Positions 2,934-4,401 of a stretch of 5,791 nucleotides of DNA are shown piece after piece (the stretch's first letter is position 1; every line of letters begins with the position of its first letter). The position numbers and the translations under genes are program-made. The notes below the pieces were generated by a model. It saw only the letters and a program-made list of their open reading frames with translations. It was not told the DNA's origin and did not search any database. This DNA comes from a bacterium (lineage in GTDB: Bacteria > CG2-30-53-67 > CG2-30-70-394), in assembly GCA_024278555.1 (NCBI GenBank), contig JAJRSX010000060.1, positions 1-5,791 on the forward strand, in the 5' to 3' direction.

Positions 2934-3033
2934 GCGATGTTTCTTGGAAGCCAAACCACGAAGAACACGAAGGGTACGAAGGGGGTGGTGCGCGGGTACG
3001 GCGTCATCGTCGCTGACCCGAGGCTCCGTCCGG

Positions 3034-3339
3034 GCCTGGAAGGCATTTTCAACGCAAAGGCGCAAAGGCGCGAAGGCGCAAAGATGCAGAGGGGTGCAGT
3101 GCTCGGGCATGGTGTCTCAGGCGAAACGCCACCATACGGCGCGGCCTGGAAGGCAGTTATTGGCCACGGAATCCACGGAAGGGCACGGAAGGTGGACCTG
3201 CGACTTCCGTGCCCTTCCGTGGATTCCGTGGCGATTTCTCTGCCGGACGGCACTTGGTTCCGGCCAGGCGACTTCGCCGCAAGATCCCCTTTTCCCCCCC
3301 TTGCGTCTTTGCGCCTTTGCGTTGAAACGCCTTCCAGGC
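3034..3339. repeat. Middle inverted repeat of the complex, GCAAAGGC type
   Basis: The arms 3034-3070 and 3304-3339 pair over about 37 bp with two substitutions and one 1-nt indel by hand alignment. Each outer end is the exact 11-mer GCCTGGAAGGC, then TTTCAACGC, then period-8/9 GCGCAAAG units. The left arm continues with extra units (GCGCGAAG, GCGCAAAG, ATGCAGAG) to about 3094 that have no partner on the right. Confidence 0.85.
3163..3232. repeat. Perfect 29-bp stem, 12-nt loop, CACGGAA type
   Basis: The left arm 3163-3191 and the right arm 3204-3232 are exact reverse complements over all 29 bases, around a 12-nt loop (3192-3203). Each arm contains three period-9 units: CCACGGAAT, CCACGGAAG, GGCACGGAAG. 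In the suf transcript this would be a very stable hairpin between sufB and sufC. No U-run follows (GATTTCTCTG), so it is not a standard intrinsic terminator; partial attenuation or protection of the upstream mRNA end are possible roles. Confidence 0.9.
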
Positions 3340-3436
3340 AGCGCGCCCTCCCCTCGCGCCGCCGCGACGCCCTTCTTCCGAGCAACGGCCCCTTCGTGCC
3401 CTTCGTGGTCTTGAAATCTAAGAAAAGGACCAACCC

Positions 3437-4201
<765 letters not shown>

Positions 4202-4211
4202 TGCGAACGGA

Positions 4212-4381
4212 TTTCAACACGAAGGCGCGAAGGCGCAACGAGGGGTGGCCCCCGGGGGTGGCGTCTCGGGCGACGCACCACGACCCGGTGCGGCCTGGGA
4301 GGCAGGTTTTTGCCACGGAATCCGCGGAAGGGCACGGAAGGTTTGTCTCCGACTTCTCTCTCTTTCCGTGGATCCCGTGGC
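4212..4381. repeat. Second copy of the repeat complex between sufC and sufD (right arms missing)
   Basis: The 200-nt sufC-sufD gap (4202-4401) holds modules in the same order as the left and centre of the sufB-sufC complex: a TTTCAACACGAAGGCGCGAA segment (4212-4244), a GGCGTCTCGGGCGA segment, GCCTGGGAGGC (4293-4303) and the CACGGAA hairpin (4312-4331 pairing 4362-4381, 17 of 20). 4260-4381 aligns without gaps to 3111-3232, 97 of 122 identical by hand count. The outer closing arms are absent. The copy ends 8 nt before the sufD ribosome site. Confidence 0.85.
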
Positions 4382-4401
4382 GATCTCCATGAGGCTCTGA
4401 G

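Follow-up and report, generated by a model that had tools for sequence, protein, structure and literature searches.

The suf operon studied here raises two questions: what fills its 503-bp sufB–sufC gap, and how did it come to lie there? The window, a stretch of 5,791 nt that forms one whole contig (C29) of a 3.06-Mb genome in 211 contigs (G000), carries genes for an Rrf2-type regulator, sufB (ending at 2933), sufC (starting at 3437) and sufD, and the sufB–sufC gap is filled by three pairs of arms, A, B and C, set around one centre. Bacterial genomes commonly carry short palindromic repeats, and a mobiliser has been proposed for only some of them, chiefly those of the GTAG type. We put the chances at somewhat better than even that the shells were built up one after another, each new non-autonomous hairpin element inserting into the middle of an older one. 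Nested shells whose families can be told apart would permit the relative dating of insertions, and insertions inside operons like suf would show how repeats are tolerated.

Three nested arm pairs form one palindrome

Pairing and folding confirm the three concentric arm pairs of different families that a preliminary description had reported between sufB and sufC. Arms of this kind fit one template, tandem CRCRRARR, with 2–5 units of 8–10 nt each and, in the copies read by eye, edges of TTCAC, TTCAA, TTRGC or TTTGC; the units in the insert are CACGAAGG (A), CGCAAAGG (B) and CACGGAA (C). The centres of the pairs, at about 3187 (A), 3187 (B) and 3198 (C), lie within about 11 bp of one another (Table 1). 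The A pair (2961–2995/3378–3412) matches at 83% over 35 nt, with a 20-nt core (2955–2974/3390–3409) at 90%; the B pair (3047–3076/3298–3327) matches at 90% over 30 nt, and the C pair (3163–3191/3204–3232) at 100% over 29 nt. Pairing per shell (A 90%, B 80–90%, C 100%) is perfect only in the innermost pair and does not fall smoothly from the inside outwards, and an age gradient based on arm identity was rejected.

The insert folds far better than shuffled sequence (z of −11.1 as RNA and −12.8 as DNA, with no shuffle as good). The linkers between the arms pair in part too (76–79% over the alignable parts), so the whole insert is a single long, imperfect palindrome, best preserved in its arms. 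An assembly artefact is unlikely, because other contigs and other genomes have the same architecture. Two open reading frames of 168 and 156 amino acids that run through the insert are probably spurious, and Pfam searches of both frames gave nothing above the cut-off; Rfam returned for the window weak miRNA-hairpin matches alone, far below the gathering score, as a generic long hairpin would. A fourth family, D, occurs upstream of the Rrf2 gene at about 566–741 as an inverted pair (CCCAGAGGGCGCAGAGAAC ... GTTCTCTGTGTCCGCTGTGTCTCTGTGG). A run of C closes the contig (5760–5791) and is probably an assembly or sequencing artefact.

Table 1 Features of the sufB–sufC insert and of the second stack (window coordinates)
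Feature	Position	Strand	Evidence
Shell A left arm, CACGAAGG tandem units	2955–2982	+	Arm pairing, family scan; independent genome copies
Outer linker, left half, with GGCGTCATCGT and tag	2983–3046	+	Linker length of 69–78 nt recurs in other stacks
Tag GCCTGGAAGGC (4-bp mini-palindrome), outside arm B left	3034–3044	+	Arm inspection, tag count
Shell B left arm, CGCAAAGG tandem units, outer edge TTTCAA	3047–3092	+	Arm pairing, family scan
Inner linker, left half	3093–3162	+	Family scan
Tag GCCTGGAAGGC, outside arm C left	3144–3154	+	Arm inspection, tag count
Shell C left arm, CACGGAA units	3163–3191	+	Arm pairing; C outnumbers the other families in the scanned stretches
12-nt loop, common centre	3192–3203	.	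Arm pairing and folding
Shell C right arm	3204–3232	-	29/29 complementary
Inner linker, right half, with variant tag GCCGTCCGGCAG	3233–3287	-	Family scan
Shell B right arm	3288–3327	-	Arm pairing, family scan
Tag GCCTTCCAGGC (same tag, reverse strand), outside arm B right	3329–3339	-	Arm inspection, tag count
Outer linker, right half	3340–3385	-	Family scan, linker pairing
Shell A right arm	3386–3412	-	Arm pairing, family scan
Second, one-sided A+C stack, sufC–sufD gap	4214–4390	+	77% identical to 3065–3238; A+(69)C+

The junction in relatives

The statement that this gap is normally a few bases proved slightly too strong: including the stop codon it measures 506 bases here, 76 in a congeneric genome (G001, SufB 91–92% identical) and 2–148 in nine other relatives. 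The congener has no shells at the orthologous junction, which the preliminary description had counted as a sign of stepwise insertion, and its sufC–sufD gap, where the window carries the one-sided A+C stack, is short too. The spacers of the two genomes are too diverged to give exact insertion points, as are those of two A elements elsewhere (L092 and L090) compared with the corresponding sites in their families. Neither the congener nor any of six sampled class relatives has the strict two-unit A pattern, though units related to it under the degenerate template do occur there. In L252 (G315), the site homologous to that of an A element in a related genome is occupied by another tandem-arm palindrome, (GGGGCTA)n ... 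(TAGCCCC)n.

The shell-free junctions of the congener and the other relatives bear on whether the insert is a selected regulatory structure, either paired sites for a chromosome-binding regulator or a hairpin that attenuates or stabilizes the suf transcript. The very stable fold inside an operon would suit such a role, as would the terminator-like cores with some compensatory changes in another genome (G231, below) and the paired tandem-octamer sites of Geobacter metallireducens, which were interpreted as global regulator sites (PMC2700814); but a structure missing from close relatives, patchy over 290 genomes and present at many unrelated loci with no conserved site is unlikely to have been selected for regulation. 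The insert may have a secondary effect on suf expression.

Arm families and stacks across the genome

Our figures for G000 rest on 80 stretches covering 1.07 Mb of the 3.06 Mb. Many stretches were selected for holding matches and some stacks are mutual copies, so the counts are not of independent events; arm families were assigned by simple unit matching, without a tree or formal clustering. By BLAST, the insert matches its own genome at 118 places, mostly with one arm or one pair, and A, B and C arms all occur separately, as the independent units expected of stepwise insertion. In 601 kb the four families account for 135 arms, and the reversed sequence, as a control, gave 6; a broader scan, over 1.07 Mb, used looser units and had more background (297 arms against 75 in the control). 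In the broader scan, arms that converge belong to the same family in 32 of 37 pairs, and arms stacked on the same strand are mostly spaced 69–78 nt apart.

Across the 80 stretches, stacked same-strand neighbours 55–85 nt apart are of different families in every case (29/29), and the families stack in reciprocal orders (BC/CB, DC/CD, BD/DB and AC/CA). The shells are therefore not one fixed unit, as differing stacking orders show. The lack of same-family stacks at this distance (0/29) could mean self-exclusion, or recombinational loss of such stacks.

Many stacks are one-sided or unequal on left and right (for example, L049 with A+ C+ C- E- and L048 with E+ C+ B- A-), composites of B, linker and C are repeated with similar linkers at three loci (L027, L035 and L037), modules have a constant length of about 100 nt with linkers that are alike between different arm families, and a search for a clean empty linker without arms found none. 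Each of these features, and the outer tag that the families have in common, is what a BIME-like mosaic would give, in which arm-plus-linker modules were recombined and amplified ready-made and the sufB–sufC copy arrived as one multi-shell unit. This is the main rival to stepwise nesting, a possible account but a clearly less probable one: by BLAST the genome holds no second copy of the six-arm A–B–C stack (the second-best match spans 174 of 531 bases), each family also occurs as single-shell elements, and stacking order varies.

A tag shared between families

The tag GCCTGGAAGGC lies, with at most two mismatches, 7–11 nt outside 69 of 222 arms of families A–D in G000 (A 7/56, B 13/42, C 30/66 and D 19/58), compared with 2 of 222 on the inner side and 129 of 16,000 random 32-mers (0.8%). 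The common outer tag makes it likely that A–D are parts of one system with exchangeable arms, although most A arms have no recognizable tag. In the window the tag flanks B on both sides and C on the left. The D pair near the Rrf2 gene is followed by a reverse tag-like GCCTTCCAG.

Families that share a tag are also relevant to growth of a single palindrome from its tip, which the preliminary description had offered as a second origin. Template switching or slippage, without mobile elements, might produce the perfect central stem, and arms made of tandem units are prone to slippage; however, slippage cannot yield unrelated arm families that are dispersed over a genome and have a common tag, nor one 31-nt pattern across many phyla, and we regard this origin as very improbable.

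Distribution across bacteria

That exact 31-nt A pattern, TTCACCACGAAGGNCACGAAGGNCACGAAGG, was found in 37 stretches that are all metagenome-assembled and, by their record titles, alpha-, beta-, gamma- and deltaproteobacterial or from Chloroflexota, Planctomycetota, Hydrogenedentota, Actinomycetota and Gemmatimonadota, although some bins may be contaminated. Three units of the degenerate template occur with period 9 in 49 and with period 8 in 50 of 290 diverse genomes; the reversed-pattern control mostly gave 0 matches, and the few genomes with equal control counts were taken as no evidence. Judged by sequence, the arms would form a superfamily with a patchy distribution over many phyla.

A deltaproteobacterial bin (G041) has 111 copies of the A end; its simple element is a hairpin of 65–91 bp (TTCACCACGAAGG...CCTTCGTGGTGAA), and longer copies enclose other repeats, among them GTAG-type REPs or, at the apex, a B hairpin. 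The anatomy thus recurs in another phylum, where B is nested at the apex of A in L173 (7777–7945) and A lies beside or inside B in L193. G231 (3.4 Mb, 7 contigs, 100% complete) has 111 copies of a D-like arm, forming about 55 arm pairs (L310–L339 and L290–L309) of mainly two sizes, about 74 and about 190 bp; in 400 kb of this genome nearly all arms are paired, and triple CACGGAGA units are present. The long form often contains a GC-rich, terminator-like hairpin with a few compensatory changes. Arms are nearly invariant and cores vary in G231, as expected if the arms are the recognized part.

Proposed stepwise nesting and the mobiliser

We hypothesize that short, non-coding mobile repeats able to form hairpins are stacked in the insert, each an inverted arm pair on the CRCRRARR template and, in many G000 copies, preceded by the outer tag. 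An A element would have entered the sufB–sufC gap first, a B element would then have entered the middle of A, and a C element the middle of B, leaving concentric shells in an outer-first order. The elements may have moved as single-stranded hairpins with an enzyme acting in trans, and would insert preferentially at or near the apex. Stepwise nesting is supported by the independent families, their fixed spacing and stacking in either order, the common tag, the empty sister junction and the absence of a target site duplication in the A family (below), and also by B at the apex of A elsewhere, A inside unrelated palindromes, the perfection of the C pair alone and the invariant arms of G231. Against it stand the lack of an empty linker, the one-sided and unequal stacks, the repeated B–linker–C composites, the rarity of strong flank pairing among A elements and the uneven decay of the arms from inside to outside.

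The repeated insertion first proposed for this locus is supported in part, by the independent units and the empty sister junction. Each step may have entered the exact tip, but no clean empty linker was found, one-sided mosaics are many, and when 39 non-redundant A elements of other phyla were tested for pre-existing palindromes, the pairing of their flanks ranked among the best 5% in only 4 (p = 0.13). A permutation of mean energy gave p = 0.0008 for flank pairing but is confounded by GC differences between genomes. Five A elements do lie within unrelated palindromes (L090, L092, L099, L100 and L116); apex insertion as a strict rule is unsupported by the 4 of 39.

The reported absence of a transposase from the window is borne out, and mobility supplied in trans is plausible, with a mobiliser that is not obviously a Y1/RAYT transposase. 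None of the 39 non-redundant A elements has a target site duplication of at least 4 nt, which argues against a DDE transposase for this family. G000 has four Y1_Tnp genes (L024, L031, L043 and L046, on contigs C27, C70, C170 and C185), and their ends, GGGGTCAG in three and GGGGACAG in one, differ from the arms; in G231, with its 111 arm copies, Y1_Tnp had no match. We rejected Y1/RAYT as the mobiliser on these grounds: a Y1 transposase is not a sufficient answer and would not be required, although the enzyme may have been lost after amplification. The Y1_Tnp genes of G000 resemble the published TIRYT group and not REP-flanked RAYTs (PMC3733652).

Candidate autonomous copies with a gene between the arms (L173 564–1854, L103 and G231 272–275 kb) were rejected, as their proteins, read by eye, include no recognizable transposase; these gene-containing stretches adjoin separate complete hairpins.

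Relation to known repeats

Among the closest published units are the paired tandem-repeat sites of G. metallireducens, of class 1 and class 2 (consensus TCTCCGTS[Y]), whose 21 pairs were interpreted as regulator sites (PMC2700814). They consist of three tandem units, paired on opposite strands at variable distance, and the reverse complement of class 2, CACGGAGA, fits CRCRRARR, its unit and pairing recurring in G231, a likeness at the level of units and not of the published alignments. In contrast to our arms, they concern one genome, and the accessible part of that report mentions neither stacking of families nor a cross-phylum superfamily.

REPINs and REP doublets moved by RAYT are likewise inverted doublets that are non-autonomous, hairpin-forming and of high copy number (PMC3116915, PMC2817692). 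The inverted doublet is the repeated unit here too, given the 32 of 37 same-family converging pairs, and the long form of G231 resembles a REPIN in having a hairpin at each end. However, our arms are tandem units rather than palindromes and carry no GTAG tag, the Y1 genes have other ends, the arm-rich G231 has no Y1 match, and no cognate RAYT gene bordered by these repeats occurs in G000 or G231. DDE-type MITEs are also short, non-coding and of high copy number, with inverted ends; terminal inverted repeats and the lack of coding sequence are found here, whereas the target site duplication is absent from the A family. Enterobacterial BIMEs are similarly mosaics of inverted units and linkers, but in them REPs alternate along the DNA rather than forming concentric shells of different families (PMC2817692), and our units are not REPs.

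GTAG and CGTC REP dimers occur within palindromes in several phyla; the CGTC superfamily has no dedicated transposase, and empty target palindromes were not found (PMC3733652). Our repeats resemble them in lying inside unrelated palindromes and in spanning phyla, but those dimers have two layers and one REP family, whereas several arm families with one template and tag are stacked here. There is thus precedent both for nested palindromic repeats and for repeat superfamilies that span phyla. A search of the open-access literature for the arm sequences found no relevant paper, and within that literature the combination of a common arm template and a palindrome built of several stacked families appears to be new. 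A superfamily with one simple arm syntax, spread over many phyla, patchy among relatives and abundant in a genome with no Y1 match, would point to an unknown mobiliser. It is a speculative possibility, which we rate as doubtful, that these repeats are a third multi-phylum superfamily of bacterial mobile palindromes, with tandem CRCRRARR arms, non-Y1 machinery and insertion into the middles of older members, so that the shells would record insertion order.

Members of several repeat superfamilies are found together within one mosaic in G041: at two of its loci (L174 and L176), GTAG-type REPs (GTAGGGTGCGC...GCGCACC) and a TGTCCTGAGCRAMGTCGAAGG-like repeat lie inside A shells.
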